Below are positions 2,246-10,796 of a DNA stretch of 14,839 nucleotides, piece by piece (the first letter of the stretch is position 1; every line of letters begins with the position of its first letter). The translations under genes and the position numbers were made by a program. The notes beneath the pieces were generated by a model. The model saw only the letters and a list, made by a program, of their open reading frames with translations, searched no databases and was not told the origin of the DNA. This DNA is from Pseudonocardia sp. (GTDB taxonomy: Bacteria > Actinomycetota > Actinomycetes > Mycobacteriales > Pseudonocardiaceae). The stretch is taken from NCBI GenBank assembly GCA_030453005.1, contig JAKDLE010000012.1, positions 1-14,839 of the forward strand, written 5' to 3'.

Positions 2246-3253
2246 GTGACCGCACCCAGGACCCCTGACCAGAAGAGTCCCGAGCGTCGGACCCCGGAGC
2301 GCAAGGGTGGGCTCGGCCGCGGGTTGGCGGCGCTGATCCCGACCGGACCGTCCATCCCGGTCACGACGGGGTCCACCACGTCCGAGGTGAACCCCCGCCC
2401 GCGGCAGACCACCGACGAGCGCGCGGACATCCGTCTATCCGGTGCGGTGGCCGGGGCCGAGTACCGCGAGATCGACGTCGCGGCCGTCCACCCGAACCCA
2501 CAGCAGCCGCGCACGAGCTTCGACGAGGAGGCGCTCGCCGAGCTGGAGCACTCGATCCGCGAGTTCGGGCTGCTGCAGCCGGTCGTCGTCCGCGAGGTCT
2601 CCCCCGGCTCCTACGAGCTGGTGATGGGCGAGCGTCGTTGGCGCGCGACGCAACGCGCCGGGCTCGTACGCATCCCCGCCATCGTCCGCAGCGCAGGCGA
2701 CGACGTGATGCTGCGCGACGCGCTGCTGGAGAACATCCACCGCGTCCAGCTCAACCCGCTGGAGGAGGCGGCCGCCTACGAGCAGTTGCTGGCGGAGTTC
2801 GGCGTGACGCACACCGAACTCGCCGACCGGCTCGGTCGCAGCCGCCCGGTCGTCACCAACATGATCCGGCTGCTGCGGCTGCCGGTCTCGGTGCAGCGTC
2901 GCGTCGCCGCCGGTGTGCTGTCGGCCGGTCACGCTCGCGCCCTTCTGGGTCTGGAGGACGCAGGCGCGCAGGAGGACCTCGCCACCCGGATCGTCGCGGA
3001 GGGCATGTCGGTGCGGGCCACCGAGGAGGCCGTCGTCCTCGCCCGGCGGGACACGCCGACCGCGAAGCCGGTACGTCGTAAGCCGCTGCACGCGCCGGGA
3101 CTCCAGGACCTCGCCGAGCGGCTGTCGGACACCTTCGACACGCGTGTCAAGGTGGAGCTGGGCCAGCGCAAGGGGCGGATCGTCGTGGAGTTCGGTTCGG
3201 TCGAGGACCTCGAGCGGATCGCGAAACTGATGAACCCCCCGCCGCAGGGCTGA
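2246..3253 (+). CDS. parB: Chromosome-partitioning protein ParB (Spo0J)
   Basis: A 335-residue DNA-binding CTPase that loads on parS and spreads as a clamp. The N-terminal [12 protein letters not shown] (21-32) is the conserved ParA-contacting segment. The ParB/Srx nucleotide domain covers about 72-165, with HPNPQQPR (82-89) and the CTP-binding GERRWRA (129-135). A helix-turn-helix follows (about 185-212, [20 protein letters not shown]), and the C-terminal dimer domain is about 280-332. The start is GTG 2246, 4 bases after the parA stop; an in-frame start at 2189 would overlap parA and is less likely. Its targets, three parS sites, all lie within 3.7 kb of the parAB pair. A long hairpin begins 2 bases after the stop codon. 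Confidence 0.95.
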
Positions 3254-3561: not shown

Positions 3562-3930
3562 GCGACCTTGAGCGCACACTCTCGACGATCATCGCGGGCG
3601 GCTCCCGGAACGCGCTGCCTGCTCCCGTGGACCGCAGCCGGCGACCGGTTCTCTCATCGTCGAAGCAGTCGCGCGGCTCGTTCGGCGGCCCGCGGCCGAT
3701 GACGACACGACCCCGCGCACCCACCTTGTCGGTCGGGCCGGGCGCGACACCGCCACCTCCGCTCGGCGCGGCCCCTCCGCAGGCCCCATCGGCATCTCGC
3801 CGGTCGGACGTGGCCACAGAAGGATGTGCGACGACTCGTCGACCACTGTCATGGGTTCGTCCCGGTGTGGCGCCCCGTCGCCGTCGATCGACGGTCGCCG
3901 GCCGCGGCGCCGCGGGTTGCCGGCCGCGAC
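3562..3930. other. Non-coding or decayed stretch between the cobD relic and parS site 2
   Basis: Frames on both strands are open by chance at this G+C, but none shows a recognised domain, a convincing ribosome site or a natural start. It may contain further worn remains of the same inserted segment. I see no repeat array, RNA gene or promoter with confidence. Confidence 0.5.
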
Positions 3931-3932
3931 GG

Positions 3933-3948
3933 TGTTTCACGTGAAACA
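3933..3948. other. parS centromere site 2 (within a 26-bp palindrome)
   Basis: An exact TGTTTCACGTGAAACA core. The symmetry extends to a perfect 26-bp palindrome, 3928-3953. Its right edge includes two bases of the TGA stop (3952-3954) of the full-length frame of the ligase-like gene, so the gene ends exactly on the site. Confidence 0.95.
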
Positions 3949-3951
3949 CCG

Positions 3952-4902
3952 TCAGCGGTGGCGCTCCACCGCCCGCTCGACGAGTGCGGCGTACAGGTCA
4001 CCGAGCTCGATGCCCGCCGCAGCGGCGGCGGTCGGCAGCAACGACGTGTCCGTCAGCCCCGGGGAGACGTTGACCTCCAGGATCTGCACGCGGCCCTCGG
4101 CGTCCACGACGGCGTCGGTGCGCGAGACGTCGCGCAGACCGAGCAGGTGATGGGCGGCGAGCGCCGCCTCCTCCCGCGCGGTGAGTGTGGCGGCCTAGAG
4201 CCGTGCCGGGCAGTGGAACGCGGTCGCCCCCGGTGTGTAGCGGGCGGTGTAGGCGTAGAAGCCGCCGGTCGCCTCGATCTCCACCGGCGGCAGGGCCCGC
4301 GGTTGGGGACCGTCGTGCACCACGGACACGGCGACCTCCGTGCCGGTGACGAACCGTTCCGCCAGCACGGTGTCGGCGTACGCGAGGCAGCTCACCATCG
4401 CGGCGGGCAGGTCGACGGCGGACGCGACCACCTGCGCGCCGAGTGCGGAACCGCCCTGGTCGGGCTTCACCATCAAAGGGAGACCGAGCCGCTCCACCAT
4501 CGCGTCGAGGACCGCCTGGGCGCCGAACTCGCGGAATGTGGTGTGCGGGAGGGCGACCCAGTCCGGAGTCGTCAGACCGGCGCGGACGAACTCGGCCTTC
4601 GCCGTCGGCTTGTCCCACGCCCGCCGACAGGCCGACGACGGGGTGCCGACGAAGGGAACGCCGAGCAGGTCAAGTACCGCCTGCACCGAACCGTTCTCCC
4701 CCTCGCCGCCGTGCAACGCGATGACGACGGCGTCGGGGCGGTCGGTGCGCAGGCGGCGCAGCAGGGCGGCGTCGGCGTCCCACTCGACGACGGACAGGCC
4801 GGTCGTGCGGAGGGCCGACGCCAGGCGCCGGCCCGAGCGCAGCGACACCTCACGTTCATGGGACAGACCTCCCGCGAGTACGGCCACGGTTCTCACCGTC
4901 AC
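3952..4902 (-). pseudogene. D-alanine-D-alanine-ligase-like ATP-grasp gene interrupted by an in-frame TAG
   Basis: The frame resembles D-Ala-D-Ala ligases: VAVLAGGLSHEREVSLRSG (6-24), ALHGGEGENGS (62-72), WDKPTAK (96-102), PLMVKPDQGGSALG (142-155) and AERFVTGTEVAVSVV (181-195). Codon 236 is TAG (bases 4195-4197). The same frame then continues without further damage for 80 residues to a TGA at 3952-3954, through SRTDAVVD and ILEVNVSPGLTDTSLLP. Those 80 residues hold all three expected Mg2+ ligands (D263, E276, N278; compare D257, E270, N272 of E. coli DdlB), so the 235-residue product should be inactive. A single GAG-to-TAG change would explain it; sequencing error or readthrough are alternatives. 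The start is taken as GTG 4902 to fit the family; in-frame GTGs at 4923 and 5004 are possible. Ligation of D-Ala is the family activity; the true substrate is unknown. Confidence 0.85.
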
Positions 4903-5010
4903 CGCCCGCGAGCCGGTCGCCACCGTGGAGAGCTCCGTCGAGCCTGAGAGGGTCACCGCGGCATTCTGCGCCACGAGCCCGGTCACACCCCGCACCGGGC
5001 ACACCGATGT

Positions 5011-5026
5011 TGTTTCACGTGAAACA
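5011..5026. other. parS centromere site 3
   Basis: An exact TGTTTCACGTGAAACA between the aminotransferase stop (5032) and the upstream end of the ligase-like gene. With site 2 it brackets the ligase-like gene. Confidence 0.95.
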
Positions 5027-5031
5027 CCGCG

Positions 5032-6363
5032 CTACGGCGTGTGCGGCGACGGCGCCTGTGGCCCGTCGCGGACGGCGGGCGGAGTGGCCGGAAGGCGCGC
5101 GGGGGTACCGAAGGTGCGCATGACGTCGAGCTCCGCCTCCAGGACCGCCGCGAGACGGCGGACCCCCTCGGTGATCCGCTCGGGGGTCGGGTAGCAGTAG
5201 GACAGCCGCAGCTGCCGACTACCGAACCCGTCGGCGTAGAAGCCGGTGCCCGACGCGTACGCCACCCGGGCGGTGACGGCACGCGGCAGCATCGCCTTGG
5301 TGTCCACCCCCTCGGGCACGGTGAGCCACACGTAGAACCCGCCGTCCGGGACGTTCCAGGAGCAGCCCTCCGGAAGGTAGGTCTCCAGCGCACGGAGCAT
5401 GGCGTCGCGGCGGTCGCGGTAGGCCTCGGTGTAGGTCTTGATCTGGCTGCGCCAGTCGTGCCCGGCGAGATAGCGCGAGACGAGCATCTGGTTGAACGAC
5501 GGCGGGCACAGGGTGGCCGACTCGGCCGCGAGGACGAGCCGGTCGCGCACCGCGGGCGGCACCAGCGCCCAGCCCACCCGCAGACCCGACGCGAAGGTCT
5601 TGGAGAACGAGCCGAGGTAGATGACGTCGCGGTCCATCGAGCGCAGCGCCGGGTACGCGGAGCCGCTGAAACCCAGCAGCCCGTAGGGGTTGTCCTCCAC
5701 CACCGCGACACCGAACCGCGCGCAGATCTCCAGCACCTCCGCGCGGCGTTCGACGGCGAGCGTGACGCCGGCCGGGTTGTGGAAGTTGGGGATCGTGTAG
5801 AGGAACTTCGGGACGATCCCCTGGTGCGCCAAGGTGTGCAGAGCGGTGCGGAGCAACTCGGGAACGAGGCCGTGGGAGTCCATCGCCACGTGCACCACGC
5901 GCGCCTGGTAGGCGGCGAAACTGCCGAGCGCGCCGACGTAGGACGGGCCCTCGGCGAGCACGACGTCGCCGGGATCGCAGTAGATGCGGGTGACCAGGTC
6001 GAGGGCCATCTGTGACCCGACGGTGACGACGACGTCGTCGGGGACGGCGCGGATGCCTTCGAGCGCCATCACCTCGCAGATCTGCTCGCGGAGGGCAGGG
6101 ACGCCCTGCGCGGAGCCGTACTGCAGCGCCACCTGTCCCTCGCGGGCGACGAGATCGGCGACCTCCACCGACAACGCGTCCAGCGGCAGCGCGGCGATGT
6201 TCGGCATCCCGCCGGCCAGGGAGACGACCTCGGGCCTGCTCGCGACCGCGAACAACGCCCGGATCTCCGACGCCGTCATCCCTGCGGTGCGCGCCGCGAA
6301 CCGCTCCGCGGGCGCGACGGCCGGCGTGGAGGGGACTTCTCGGCGGAGCGGCGCGTCGGCCAC
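5032..6363 (-). CDS. Fold-type I PLP-dependent aminotransferase (2-aminoadipate-transaminase/LysN-like)
   Basis: A 443-residue class I/II aminotransferase using pyridoxal phosphate. The substrate-side block SLAGGMPN is at 48-55, QYGSAQG at 81-87, IPNFHNPAG (191-199) gives the cofactor-contacting Asn, and DNPYG (224-228) gives Asp and Tyr. The Schiff-base lysine is K255 in GSFSKTFASGLRVGW. The carboxylate-binding arginine is R386 in QLRLSY. No GntR-type DNA-binding domain is present, so it is the free-standing enzyme relative of MocR regulators. GTG 6363 follows GGGAGGA with 4 bases between, which fixes the start. It runs towards the ligase-like gene with 129 bases and a parS site between them, so cotranscription is possible. 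The substrate cannot be read from sequence; aromatic amino acids, 2-aminoadipate or branched amino acids are candidates. Confidence 0.9.
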   Translation of the reverse strand: MADAPLRREVPSTPAVAPAERFAARTAGMTASEIRALFAVASRPEVVSLAGGMPNIAALPLDALSVEVADLVAREGQVALQYGSAQGVPALREQICEVMALEGIRAVPDDVVVTVGSQMALDLVTRIYCDPGDVVLAEGPSYVGALGSFAAYQARVVHVAMDSHGLVPELLRTALHTLAHQGIVPKFLYTIPNFHNPAGVTLAVERRAEVLEICARFGVAVVEDNPYGLLGFSGSAYPALRSMDRDVIYLGSFSKTFASGLRVGWALVPPAVRDRLVLAAESATLCPPSFNQMLVSRYLAGHDWRSQIKTYTEAYRDRRDAMLRALETYLPEGCSWNVPDGGFYVWLTVPEGVDTKAMLPRAVTARVAYASGTGFYADGFGSRQLRLSYCYPTPERITEGVRRLAAVLEAELDVMRTFGTPARLPATPPAVRDGPQAPSPHTP

Positions 6364-6563
6364 GGAATCCTCCCGGGTTGTCGAATCGACCGAGTGTAAC
6401 CGGGGCTACCTGCCCCCGGATCGGGTTGTGACCGGCCCTTCGTCGCCACAGAGTCGCCGGTCGCAGCAGGTGGGGTATCGTGAGCGGTTGGATCGATCTA
6501 TGGTCGGGAGGCCGTTCGCGTCGGGCGACGGCATCAGGGGTAGCTCGCCGCCGGAGGTTTGAC
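6364..6563. promoter_or_regulatory. Divergent promoter region between the aminotransferase and GNAT genes
   Basis: A 200-bp gap between head-to-head genes. For the - strand, TACACT (6393-6398) is a fair -10 box placed 30 bases before the start, with GGGAGGA (6368-6374) as ribosome site; no good -35 is visible. An inverted repeat CCGGGG/CCCCGG (6400-6405, 6414-6419) lies in the spacer and could be an operator. For the + strand, TATCGT at 6476-6481 is only a possible -10. Confidence 0.4.
6553..6557 (+). promoter_or_regulatory. Ribosome binding site fixing the TTG start of the GNAT gene
   Basis: GGAGG with a 6-base spacer to TTG 6564. The only earlier in-frame start, at 6480, lacks such a site and would add an unusual Arg-rich leader. 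Confidence 0.75.
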
Positions 6564-7211
6564 TTGTCCTGGCACGTTGCTCCCATCACTCTGGACAATC
6601 TGGACGAACTGCCCAAACGGTGTCGTCGCTGTGTCTTCTGGGAGCTGTCCGAGACCCTGCGCCGCCAAGCGGTCGACTTCGGCTCGGTGGAGCTGGAGAA
6701 GGAGGCGTGGGTCTCCGAGGTGCTGCTGGAGTGGGGGTCGTGCGGGCGCATCGTGCACATGGACGGCTCCCCCGCGGGCTACGTGATCTACGCGCCGCCC
6801 TCGGCGGTGCCGCGCGCCGCCGAGATGCCCACCGGCCCGGTCAGCGCCGACGCGGTACTGCTCACGACGATGCAGGTCCTGCCGGAGTTCGCGAGCGAGG
6901 GTCTCGGCCGGATGTTGGCGCAGGCGGTGGTGCGCGACCTCACGCGTCGTGGGGTGAAGGCCATCGAGGCCTTCGGTGACGCCCGGCCCGGCACCGAGCC
7001 CGACTGCGTCATCCCGGCCGACTTCCTGCGCAGCGTCGGGTTCAAGACGGTCCGCCCGCACCCGCGCTGGCCGCGGTTGCGGATGGAGCTGCGCTCGGCG
7101 ATGACGTGGAAGGAGGACGTCGAGGCCGCGTTGGAGCAACTGCTCGGTTCGATCACGGTCCCGATGCAGGCACCGGCACCGGTGGAAAGCGGGATGCCCG
7201 CCCGTTCCTGA
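6564..7211 (+). CDS. GNAT-family acetyltransferase, Rv3916c-like
   Basis: A 215-residue protein with a GNAT fold: a beta strand pair around 62-76, the acetyl-CoA segment SEGLGRMLAQAVVRDL (111-126), a following strand VKAIEAFG (131-138) and the late FLRSVGF (154-160). The N-terminus has an unusual RCRRCVFWELSE (19-30) with a CxxC pair. The same position next to cwlM and parB is held in M. tuberculosis by Rv3916c, also a GNAT-like protein. The start is TTG 6564, chosen for its GGAGG. The acceptor (small molecule, peptide or protein) is unknown. It is convergent with cwlM, with 108 bases between the stops and no clear terminator seen. The family call is good; the function is open. Confidence 0.85.
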   Translation: MSWHVAPITLDNLDELPKRCRRCVFWELSETLRRQAVDFGSVELEKEAWVSEVLLEWGSCGRIVHMDGSPAGYVIYAPPSAVPRAAEMPTGPVSADAVLLTTMQVLPEFASEGLGRMLAQAVVRDLTRRGVKAIEAFGDARPGTEPDCVIPADFLRSVGFKTVRPHPRWPRLRMELRSAMTWKEDVEAALEQLLGSITVPMQAPAPVESGMPARS

Positions 7212-7319
7212 TCACGCCCTAGCGAGGATCTGGCCCCAGCGACGATCTGAGGGCGCCGTGAGATCAACGCTGCGGGCCGATGACGAGTCCCCGAGGGGGA
7301 GAGGCCCGGGGAGGCGGTC

Positions 7320-8477
7320 TCAGATCGCCTGCGCCCCGCCCCGTTCCAGTTCGCGGGCCAGGACGTCGGAGAACGTGAAGGTGCCGGTCGGCTGGTCGTT
7401 CTGGCCCAGCAGATACAGGCGTTTGACGCCGACGAGGATGCCCTCGGCCACGACGTCGCGGAACTCGGGTGACAACAGCATGCGTCGGTCGCCCATGTTG
7501 GTGAGATACCCGATCTCGATGCGGACCGCGGGCATCCGGGTCAGCCGCAGCAGCTCCCACGTGCGGGCCTGCGACCAGCAGTCGAGCATCGCGGTGCGGG
7601 TGAGCAGCTCGCGCTGGATGAGCCCGGCGAGCGCCTCGCCGACGGTGGAGGTGGCGCCGGAGCCGTTGCCGAAGTGGAACGTGGCGAGACCCTGGGCGTG
7701 CATGCTGCGGCCGGCGTCGGTGTGCAGGGACAACACGAGGTCCGCACCGGCGTTGTTGGCGAACTCGGCCCGCTCGGCTTCGGCGGGGCAGGTGTCCTCG
7801 CGTCGGGAGAGCATCGCCTCCATGCCGGTGGCCGTCATCCGGCCCACCAGCCGACGGCCGAGGTCCCACATCAGGGCGGCCTCGGTGACGTCGCCGGACG
7901 CGACGCCGCGGTCCATTCCGCCGTGTCCGGGGTCGACGACGATGCGCTTGCCGCGCATCCGGGGCCCGGCCTCGCGCAGCAGCTCCTGCTCACGCAGCAG
8001 ATGCGGGCGGCCACCGGTGACCTTGCGGCCGAGCTGCTTGAGCGAGCGCAACGTGGCCGGGCCGCACAGCCCGTCGGGGACGAGGCCGTACTCCCGCTGG
8101 AACGCACGCAGGGCGGCCTCGGTGCGTTCGTCGAACACCCCGCCCGGGCGGCCCGGGTCGAACCCGAGTTCGAGCAGGCGTTCCTGCAGCATCGTGACGT
8201 CGTCGCCGGTCATCGGCGCGGAGATCATGAGCGCCAGCATGCGGTCACCGAGCGTGAAGCTCGCCTCGTGCATGGCCCGGTAGGTGGCGGCGCCGACGAT
8301 ACCGTCCGTGATCAGGCCACGGCGTTGCTGGAACGCGCGGACGGCCTGCTCGACCCCCGCGTCGAAGTGGTCCTCGACCACGTTCGGATGCGGTGCGGGC
8401 AGCAGACCGAACCGCCGCAACGTCGTGCGGACCTCGCCCACGGCGCGACCGCTGTCCCCTCGGCGCAGCAGCTGCAT
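7320..8477 (-). CDS. cwlM: CwlM-type N-acetylmuramoyl-L-alanine amidase / MurA regulator
   Basis: A 385-residue protein with two peptidoglycan-binding domains (about 5-70 and 85-147) and an Amidase_3 domain (178-355). The zinc ligands expected for an active amidase are all present: H185 in VVDPGHGG, E199 in VTEAAL, H252 in LVLSLHTDAG, plus catalytic E321 in RIEIGYLTN. M. tuberculosis CwlM has lost several of these and works as a cytoplasmic activator of MurA after phosphorylation by PknB. The C-terminal segment containing that phosphosite, PTGTFTF (363-369, T364), is conserved here. No signal peptide is seen, fitting a cytoplasmic protein. The start is ATG 8477 behind GAGGAG; a longer frame to 8618 runs across the terminator and is rejected. 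It follows the trxBA terminator, so it needs its own promoter, which I could not identify. Confidence 0.93.
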   Translation of the reverse strand: MQLLRRGDSGRAVGEVRTTLRRFGLLPAPHPNVVEDHFDAGVEQAVRAFQQRRGLITDGIVGAATYRAMHEASFTLGDRMLALMISAPMTGDDVTMLQERLLELGFDPGRPGGVFDERTEAALRAFQREYGLVPDGLCGPATLRSLKQLGRKVTGGRPHLLREQELLREAGPRMRGKRIVVDPGHGGMDRGVASGDVTEAALMWDLGRRLVGRMTATGMEAMLSRREDTCPAEAERAEFANNAGADLVLSLHTDAGRSMHAQGLATFHFGNGSGATSTVGEALAGLIQRELLTRTAMLDCWSQARTWELLRLTRMPAVRIEIGYLTNMGDRRMLLSPEFRDVVAEGILVGVKRLYLLGQNDQPTGTFTFSDVLARELERGGAQAI

Positions 8478-8596
8478 GCACTCCTCGCTCGATGTCGGCG
8501 GCACCACCCACGCGGGCGGATGGGAGCCCATTGTGCCCTGCCGACCCCCGACGGGGGGACAGCGGCCCGTAGCCCGGCGTGTCCGGGTCGTGATAA

Positions 8597-8633
8597 ACGG
8601 GTGCCCCGCTCGGTTCACGAGCGGGGCACCCGT
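8597..8633 (-). terminator. Rho-independent terminator of trxBA
   Basis: A perfect 16-bp stem (8597-8612 with 8618-8633) and a 5-base loop. On the - strand it is followed by TTTATCA, a short T stretch, and it starts 14 bases after the trxA stop. The symmetry could also stop transcripts from the other side. Confidence 0.9.
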
Positions 8634-8646
8634 CGGTGTCTGCGGA

Positions 8647-8976
8647 TCAGGCCAGGTAGTCGGCCAGGTCCGAGAGCAGCGCGGCCTTCGGCTTGGCGCC
8701 GACGATCTGCTTCACGGGCTTGCCGTCCTGGAACACGATCATCGTGGGGATCGACATGACCTGGAAGTTGCGGGCGGTCTCGGGGTTGGCGTCGATGTCG
8801 AGCTTCGCGACGGTGAGCTTCTCGGCGTTCTCGCCCGCGATCTCGTCGAGTACGGGGGCGACCATCTTGCACGGACCGCACCAGCTGGCCCAGAAGTCGA
8901 CCACGACGGTCTTGCTGCTCTTCAGGACGTCGGCATCGAAGGTGGCGTCGGTGACGTCGACGGTGTTGTTGCCCAT
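8647..8976 (-). CDS. trxA: Thioredoxin
   Basis: A 109-residue thioredoxin, the normal size. The redox-active WCGPC is at 32-36 after VVVDFWAS, and the cis-proline loop SIPTMIVF is at about 76-83. It reduces disulfides of cytoplasmic proteins and is itself reduced by the thioredoxin reductase encoded just upstream (35 bases between). GGAG 6 bases before ATG 8976 supports this start; an ATG four codons earlier has no ribosome site. It corresponds in position to trxC (Rv3914) of M. tuberculosis. Transcription probably begins at the SigR-type promoter before trxB and ends at the hairpin just after this gene. Confidence 0.96.
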   Translation of the reverse strand: MGNNTVDVTDATFDADVLKSSKTVVVDFWASWCGPCKMVAPVLDEIAGENAEKLTVAKLDIDANPETARNFQVMSIPTMIVFQDGKPVKQIVGAKPKAALLSDLADYLA

Positions 8977-9011
8977 GTCGTGCTCCATTTCGTCGTGTGG
9001 GGGGTCGATGG

Positions 9012-10010
9012 TCAGCCGGTGACGGCGGCGACCTGTTCGGACGCGTGGCCGTAGCCGCCGCCCGCCATCTCGGTGGTGACGGCGCCCTCGGCGAGCCAGC
9101 GCTCGGCGTCGATCGCCGCGGAGCATCCCGAACCGGCCGCCGTGACGGCCTGCCGGTACGTGTGGTCGACGAGGTCGCCGCAGGCGAAGACGCCCGGGAT
9201 CTCGGTGTAGGTGCTGGGCGAGGCGACCGAGACGTAGCCGGCGTCGTCGAGGGCCAGCTGACCCTGCACGAGCTCGCTGCGGGGGTCGTGCCCGATCGCC
9301 ACGAACATGGCGGCCGCGTCGAGGGTGCGCTCCTCGCCGGTGACGGTGTCGCGCAGCGACAGCCCGGAGACGCTTCCCTCGCCGAGTACGCCGATGACCT
9401 CGGCGTTGAGCGCCCACCGCATCTTCGGGTCGTTCTGCGCCCGTTCGAGCATGATGCGCGAGGCGCGGAACTCCTCGCGGCGGTGCACGATCGTGACCGA
9501 CTTCGCGAAGCGGGTGAGGAACGTGGCCTCCTCCATCGCGGAGTCGCCGCCGCCGACGACGGTGATGTCGTGGTCGCGGAAGAAGAACCCGTCGCAGGTG
9601 GCGCACGAACTCACGCCGCGGCCCAGCAGCTCCTGCTCGCCGGGGATGCCCAGGTAGCGCGCCGCCGCTCCCATCGCGAGGATGACGGCGCGGGCGGAGT
9701 AGGTGACGCCGTTGGCCACGACGGTCTTGACCGGACCCGCCAGCGAGACCTGCTCGACGTCCTCGGACCGCAGCTCGGCGCCGAAGCGGGTGGCCTGGCC
9801 GCGCATCTGCTCCATGAGCTCGGGGCCCATGATCCCGTCGGTGAAGCCGGGGTAGTTCTCCACCTCGGTGGTGGTCATCAGGGCGCCGCCGAACTGGCTG
9901 CCCTCGAAGACCAGCGGGGCGAGCTGGGCCCGGGCGGCGTAGACCGCGGCGGTGTAGCCCGCGGGCCCGGAACCGATGATGATCAGCTCGTGCACCTTGT
10001 CGGTGGCCAC
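9012..10010 (-). CDS. trxB: Thioredoxin reductase (NADPH, FAD)
   Basis: A 332-residue low-molecular-weight thioredoxin reductase. The FAD loop GSGPAG is at 13-18, the redox-active CATCD at 136-140 and the NADPH loop GGGDSAME at 153-160. The C-terminal FAD segment is [10 protein letters not shown]. It moves electrons from NADPH to the thioredoxin encoded next in the operon. GTG 10010 is chosen because it gives the usual family N-terminus ([14 protein letters not shown]). The next in-frame start, at 10070, lies inside the -35 element of the promoter. A perfect SigR/SigH-type promoter lies upstream, so thiol-oxidative induction is expected. Confidence 0.96.
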
Positions 10011-10047
10011 GTCAACCCCGTCCTCTCGAATTCGGTACGTCGGATAC

Positions 10048-10073
10048 AACCCGGCCCCAGGATCACGCATTCC
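10048..10073 (-). promoter_or_regulatory. SigR/SigH-type promoter of trxBA
   Basis: On the - strand GGAAT (10069-10073), an 18-base spacer and GTT (10048-10050) match exactly the GGAAT-N18-GTT consensus known for Streptomyces SigR and close to that of mycobacterial SigH. A start site about 7 bases on would leave a leader of roughly 30 bases before GTG 10010. Confidence 0.85.
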
Positions 10074-10097
10074 GGCACCCGGCGCACACCGGGTGCC
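10074..10097 (-). terminator. Hairpin between the anti-sigma gene and trxB
   Basis: A 9-bp perfect stem, GGCACCCGG (10074-10082) with CCGGGTGCC (10089-10097), and a 6-base loop. It sits 15 bases after the anti-sigma stop and directly against the trxBA -35 box. It has no T run, so its termination strength is uncertain. Confidence 0.6.
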
Positions 10098-10112
10098 ACC
10101 GCTCGGGATCCG

Positions 10113-10796
10113 TCACCGACCTGCGCCGATCACCTGCTCGGCGAGGACCGTGCCGCCGTCCGCGCCGCAGGCCGGGTCCACGACCAGCACCCGGAACCGC
10201 CCCAGCGTCCCGGTGCTCAGTACGAGCAGCAGCGCCTGCTCACCGTCCAGGCGTACCCGGCGCCCACCGAGCACCTCGTCGTCCACCCGCCCGACCGCGG
10301 TGAGGCACCCGGCGCGGGTGGCCGGGTCGGCGAGCCCGCCCAGGTCGTCGACGCCGATCGTGGAGCGGGCGACGGCCGCCAGCTCGACCCGGCTGATGAC
10401 TAGCCGGTCGTCGGGACGGGCGAGGAGCACACCCGCGACCACCGCGGCGACCGCCAGGACCGCCCCGGCCACCCGACGACGTGGGCGGGACCCGAGCACC
10501 CGCGGACGCGCCCGAGCGGGCTCCGGGCAGGCCGTCTCCCGGCGGGGGGCCGCGTCGAGTGCCGCGGCCCAGCGCGCGGCGACGTCGGGGGGCACCGGCG
10601 GGGCGGGCAGACCGGCGAGCTCGGCGCGAGTGGCGGTGAGTGCGGCGAGCGCCGCCGCGGCCTGCGGGTCCGCGAGCGCGGCGGCGCGCACCCGCTCGGC
10701 CCGCTCTGGCTCCAGCAGACCCGCGTCGAGGTCGGCGAGCAGCTCGAGATCGGGACGGCCGTCTGCGCCCGACGGCGGCCCCGCAGGCACGGTCAC
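10113..10796 (-). CDS. rsmA: Anti-sigma factor of SigM (RsmA-like, single-pass membrane protein)
   Basis: A 227-residue protein with an acidic N-terminal region (DLELLADLDAGLLEPERAER, 16-35) and a linker rich in Ala and Pro. One membrane segment follows at about 109-126 after a basic stop (RPRRR), and then an outer domain of about 100 residues. The start GTG 10796 overlaps the sigM stop in GTGA, so translation is coupled. The position matches Rv3912, the SigM anti-sigma factor of M. tuberculosis. The HxxxCxxC zinc motif of many anti-sigma factors is absent. The symbol is the anti-sigma RsmA, not the rRNA methyltransferase of that name. A much longer open frame runs upstream through sigM and the pseudokinase, but it is an antiframe shadow. 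The role rests mainly on gene order and topology. Confidence 0.8.
   Translation of the reverse strand: MTVPAGPPSGADGRPDLELLADLDAGLLEPERAERVRAAALADPQAAAALAALTATRAELAGLPAPPVPPDVAARWAAALDAAPRRETACPEPARARPRVLGSRPRRRVAGAVLAVAAVVAGVLLARPDDRLVISRVELAAVARSTIGVDDLGGLADPATRAGCLTAVGRVDDEVLGGRRVRLDGEQALLLVLSTGTLGRFRVLVVDPACGADGGTVLAEQVIGAGR

Follow-up and report, generated by a model that had tools for sequence, protein, structure and literature searches.

The closest described relatives of the gene analysed here are the Ddl ligases, represented by the DdlB-like profile NF002378, the E. coli Ddl structures 1iov and 1iow and P. aeruginosa DdlB (8evy). The Van-type D-Ala-D-Lac and D-Ala-D-Ser ligases have a fold family in common with them. 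In E. coli Ddl, residues 257, 270 and 272 of 1iov are the Mg2+ ligands. A literature search at the level of listings returned no relevant description of a Ddl paralogue in the genomic setting reported here or of a broken one, which hints that a Ddl paralogue near parAB, and a broken copy of it, may be undescribed. Here, we characterize such a gene in the window, by which we mean the whole 14,839-nucleotide stretch of DNA that was analysed. It is the entire contig C161 of an environmental assembly of 4.45 Mb in 1058 contigs that is 72% complete. The genus, shared with the nearest genomes, is probably Pseudonocardia.

Results

An in-frame TAG interrupts the Ddl-like gene on the minus strand, and the same frame then remains open for 80 codons until it is closed by a TGA. 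The following features define the gene:

4198..4902, minus strand, upstream part of the Ddl-like gene (frame, profile matches and relatives)
4195..4197, minus strand, in-frame TAG
3955..4194, minus strand, downstream part, 80 codons with predicted Mg2+ ligands (frame, profile match and 1iov alignment)
3952..3954, minus strand, TGA closing the downstream part
4252..4254, minus strand, codon 235, Ala compared with Asp in 200/200 orthologues
4174..4176, minus strand, codon 261, Arg compared with Leu, Val, Ala or Ile in 199/199 orthologues with a residue there

An earlier note on this DNA had placed the TAG at codon 236, followed by a clean run of 80 residues to the TGA at 3952-3954. This was reproduced with GTG 4902 as the first codon, which is also where the relatives P0007 and P0010 favour a start. 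GTG codons at 4956 and 5004 are also in frame; the TAG is codon 254 when counted from GTG 4956, and residue numbers 235, 254 and 261 used below refer to that start.

Profile searches were carried out with the two pieces of the gene kept apart, and both the N- and the C-terminal Ddl domain scored above cut-off. The upstream piece alone matched PF01820 and PF07478 (positions 4-130) and the downstream piece alone matched PF07478 (positions 139-204, E 1.1e-14). When the downstream piece was aligned with the E. coli Ddl chain 1iov, query residues 11-74 corresponded to chain residues 241-304 at equal lengths, with D27, E40 and N42 falling on 257, 270 and 272. These are the residues D263, E276 and N278 that had been proposed as Mg2+ ligands from the sequence alone, and the alignment with the E. 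coli ligands bears this out. The metal-binding D, E and N of the window gene thus lie past the TAG. A product truncated at the stop lacks the final 80 residues, these three among them, and would, judging from sequence, be inactive.

A continuous frame joining both Ddl domains is absent from the window due to the TAG and present in the database protein P0003, which is intact. Its identity to the window gene is 97% before the stop and 99% after it, with one difference over the downstream 80 residues. P0003 carries Asp at the stop site and ordinary residues at all three odd sites described below. It passed the DdlB-like profile NF002378 (281.2 bits, cut-off 243) and missed the older Ddl model TIGR01205 (224.1, cut-off 245.65). 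Its predicted model (mean pLDDT 83.9) matches P. aeruginosa DdlB 8evy_A with an E value of 3.3e-32 and TM scores of 0.80/0.87. By one curated profile and this predicted fold, P0003 is a putative Ddl-type ligase. In the model, the stop site lies directly before the helix leading into the metal-binding strands, so a product ending there should lack catalysis if the predicted structure is correct.

The upstream part of the gene was matched at E < 1e-60 in 34 of 35 congeners; of 24 further genomes from the same order, 17 gave such a match. The lone congener without a match, G020, is 88% complete and its missing match may be due to incompleteness. The named genome loci, the best 80 of 383, also cover other actinobacteria (Lentzea, Amycolatopsis and one titled Rhodococcus). 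In a first-pass reading, 78 of these 80 continue to a later stop. L117 passes the site once it is read from beyond an upstream stop and L068 ends with its contig before the site, so that all 79 named loci reaching the site have a sense codon at the TAG column. The earlier note had considered that homologues might naturally end at this position, and none of these 79 does. The codons found were GAC (45), TCG (6), CCC (6), GAT (5), CCG (4), GAG (2) and others (11). GAG and TCG are one base from TAG, and the remaining named codons are more than one base away. It had further been claimed that a single base change, from GAG to TAG, separates the window from an intact gene. With GAG in only 2 of the 79 loci and Asp codons, two bases away, in 50 of them, this single-base path is an assumption.

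No near-identical truncated copy was found, all of the best 120 of 6229 protein matches being at least 284 residues long, and the part beyond the stop carries residues that are invariant in a 38-sequence alignment. The TAG is not native to the gene. C-terminal fragments of the gene do occur among database proteins: there are 38, of which 8 (P0123, P0128, P0130, P0136, P0137, P0147, P0153 and P0156) stem from contigs > 40 kb, ranging from 44 kb to 1.25 Mb. For these eight, the cause is either a frameshift introduced during assembly or a gene that has been broken more than once. One of the 38, P0152 (45 residues, 93% identity, on a 1709-base contig), starts where the window has a GTG that could likewise open a reading frame. 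It may represent another broken copy, or else a database entry connected with the window.

To score individual residues, 317 positions were compared with 200 orthologues, made up of the 80 loci and 120 database proteins, which partly come from the same genomes. Three states of the window were unseen in all 200, namely A235, the TAG at codon 254 and R261, all within 27 codons. Site 235 is Asp in 200/200 orthologues and site 261, in the 199 orthologues with a residue there, is Leu (148), Val (46), Ala (4) or Ile (1). Outside those 27 codons, the rest of the gene contains zero unseen residues. The chance of three uniformly placed positions falling so close together is about 0.018, for a cluster statistic that was devised after the data had been seen and counts the stop itself among the three. 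Exactly three unseen states are also found in 19 of the orthologues, and one of these (P0059) has a tighter cluster. At least one unseen state was present in 112 of the 200 orthologues, so unseen states are not rare in themselves. Third-position GC is 0.901 in the upstream and 0.925 in the downstream part.

At the DNA level, a scan limited to columns with conservation of 95% or more among congener loci detected one departure in the patch around the stop and no excess compared with congeners; this strict scan thus lends no support to a patch of errors. Comparison with the three nearest relatives over 3900-10400 showed differences at ordinary density in the patch and at higher density in other stretches. 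The transition to transversion ratio was also tried as a mark of error and discarded, since the background of 221:516 makes transversions uninformative on sequencing error. Counting departures from invariant residues in ten genes gave 1 for the Ddl-like gene, 2 for rsmG and 2 for the amidase. As 16 of 35 congener loci show at least one departure in the Ddl-like gene, the single departure in the window copy is, as a count on its own, unexceptional. No in-frame stops were found in 11 other window frames, each being the one with the highest identity to locus L119 at its position (murJ lies outside L119), nor within the matched stretches of 83 other domain matches of the genome (50 ABC and 33 short-chain dehydrogenase), nor in its other 8 ATP-grasp matches.

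Based on profile matches, the neighbours of the Ddl-like gene are jag, rsmG, parA, parB, an aminotransferase, a GNAT-like protein (barely above cut-off), an amidase, a TrxB-like protein and murJ, a gene order that forms the usual surroundings of the actinobacterial replication origin. The features next to the gene are:

5032..6405, minus strand, aminotransferase, upstream of the Ddl-like gene (part aligned to L119 plus stop; TAG at 5032-5034)
2282..3253, plus strand, parB (part aligned to L119 plus rest to stop)
3933..3948, plus strand, exact parS-like palindrome, just beyond the end of the Ddl-like gene
5011..5026, plus strand, exact parS-like palindrome, upstream of the Ddl-like gene
1338-1353, exact parS-like palindrome, close to where the parA frame starts

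The gene is bracketed by two of these exact parS-like palindromes. Across 36 congener loci, including both L046 and L080, the 14-base core, with one mismatch allowed, was present within 400 bases of the gene match upstream in 17, downstream in 29 and on both sides in 13. Two congener loci (L060 and L070) carry an exact parS-like core within the Ddl-like coding match. When 35 congener loci were scanned for neighbours, with L080 excluded as a likely duplicate of L046, 26 contained the parB stretch and 33 the aminotransferase; contig ends cut some of the loci short. L046 (titled Pseudonocardia halophobica) and L080 (P. autotrophica) encode an identical Ddl-like protein over the matched part.

The genome contains a second, canonical ddl with an intact frame on another contig (G000:C932, E 7.2e-62), which answers the suggestion of the earlier note to look for one. 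No second copy of the locus itself was found in the genome bin, the other two bin matches being a brief piece of C161 in inverted orientation and, on C900, a short match at 77%. A search of a plasmid collection gave 5 distant matches.

Discussion

We consider a local sequence or assembly error the most likely cause of the TAG, with a little better than an even chance. A small patch of wrong bases spanning codons 235 to 261 (window 4174-4254) and including the TAG would have come from low-depth reads or from the assembly of so fragmented a genome. If so, the product in the living organism would be a normal, full-length ATP-grasp enzyme of the Ddl-like type, as predicted for the near-identical P0003. 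The position of A235 and R261 close to the stop, as the sole other unseen residues, favours such an error. Three unseen states within 27 codons, an intact near-twin, an assembly of 1058 contigs at 72% completeness and the two base changes that separate TAG from the codons of 50/79 loci all point the same way. However, contig and genome are otherwise free of in-frame stops (11 frames, 83 matches), the DNA-level tests gave no patch signal, and departures from invariant residues are seen in rsmG and the amidase as well. The main rival is a real and recent null allele of a spare Ddl-like gene, to which we give somewhat less than an even chance. According to this rival, the strain tolerates the null allele owing to its intact canonical ddl, which lies on a different contig (G000:C932). 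The two odd replacements beside the stop are what relaxed selection could give, and the frames and matches compared elsewhere in the contig and genome contain no stops. One of 35 congeners (G020, 88% complete, which may explain it) lacks a match and 38 C-terminal fragments exist elsewhere, 8 of them on contigs > 40 kb, although these may be assembly frameshifts. A null allele fits less well with the zero unseen residues outside the 27 codons, a third-position GC that stays high, the intact frame of the nearest relative P0003, the sense codon in 79/79 loci and the lack of any protein < 284 residues among the best 120 of 6229 matches. A milder form, in which the second ligase is dispensable and occasionally lost in place, is counted within this rival.

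Two further explanations were weighed. Read-through of the TAG by a suppressor tRNA or through recoding, yielding a full-length enzyme, would account for the intact downstream frame and its preserved metal ligands. It has hardly any chance of being correct, given that TAG serves as an ordinary stop in this genome, ending parA and the aminotransferase where their L119 counterparts end. In addition, 0/83 other domain matches hold an in-frame stop, a TAG-reading tRNA was absent among the 22 found (although the genome is just 72% complete), none of the 79 loci has a stop at the site and two residues near the stop are abnormal too. TAG-terminated genes, stop-free matches and tRNA set together mean that read-through is without support. 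Recent loss and sequencing error, also proposed in the earlier note, both still stand as candidates. A naturally shorter protein ending at the TAG is the least probable of the readings considered. No points in its favour were found, 79 of 80 named loci pass the site with the remaining one cut by a contig end, and the lost part holds residues invariant in the 38-sequence alignment. It is also very unlikely that the stop is real and its truncated or partly read-through product kept, with the parAB-proximal ligase being switched off or made sparingly in one Pseudonocardia lineage.

Returning to local error as the preferred explanation, our analysis calls for caution: a lone in-frame stop in a fragmented assembly, with near-identical relatives intact, is weak evidence for loss or recoding. 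If the null allele were true, a second Ddl-like ligase found in 34 of the 35 congeners searched could be spared.

Compared with known systems, the window gene resembles E. coli Ddl (1iov) in its metal-ligand positions, and its intact relative P0003 resembles NF002378 members in profile score and DdlB (8evy) in predicted fold. The window gene differs from Ddl in being a second copy near parAB with a broken frame, in sharing 38% identity over residues 74-253 with the genome's canonical ddl, and in having Arg at the Lys position of the KY pair, Lys being the residue in the two top solved Ddl sequences among those shown. Van-type ligases gave weak profile matches only. Within the 25 of 35 families shown for P0003, this protein stays far below the cut-off of every Van profile (for example VanG 143.6 with cut-off 495, VanA 88.3 with cut-off 775) and is, by the profile cut-offs shown, classed as not being a Van ligase. 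The surroundings likewise set the gene apart from Van ligases, its neighbours being jag, rsmG, parA, parB, the aminotransferase, the GNAT-like protein, the amidase, the TrxB-like protein and murJ.
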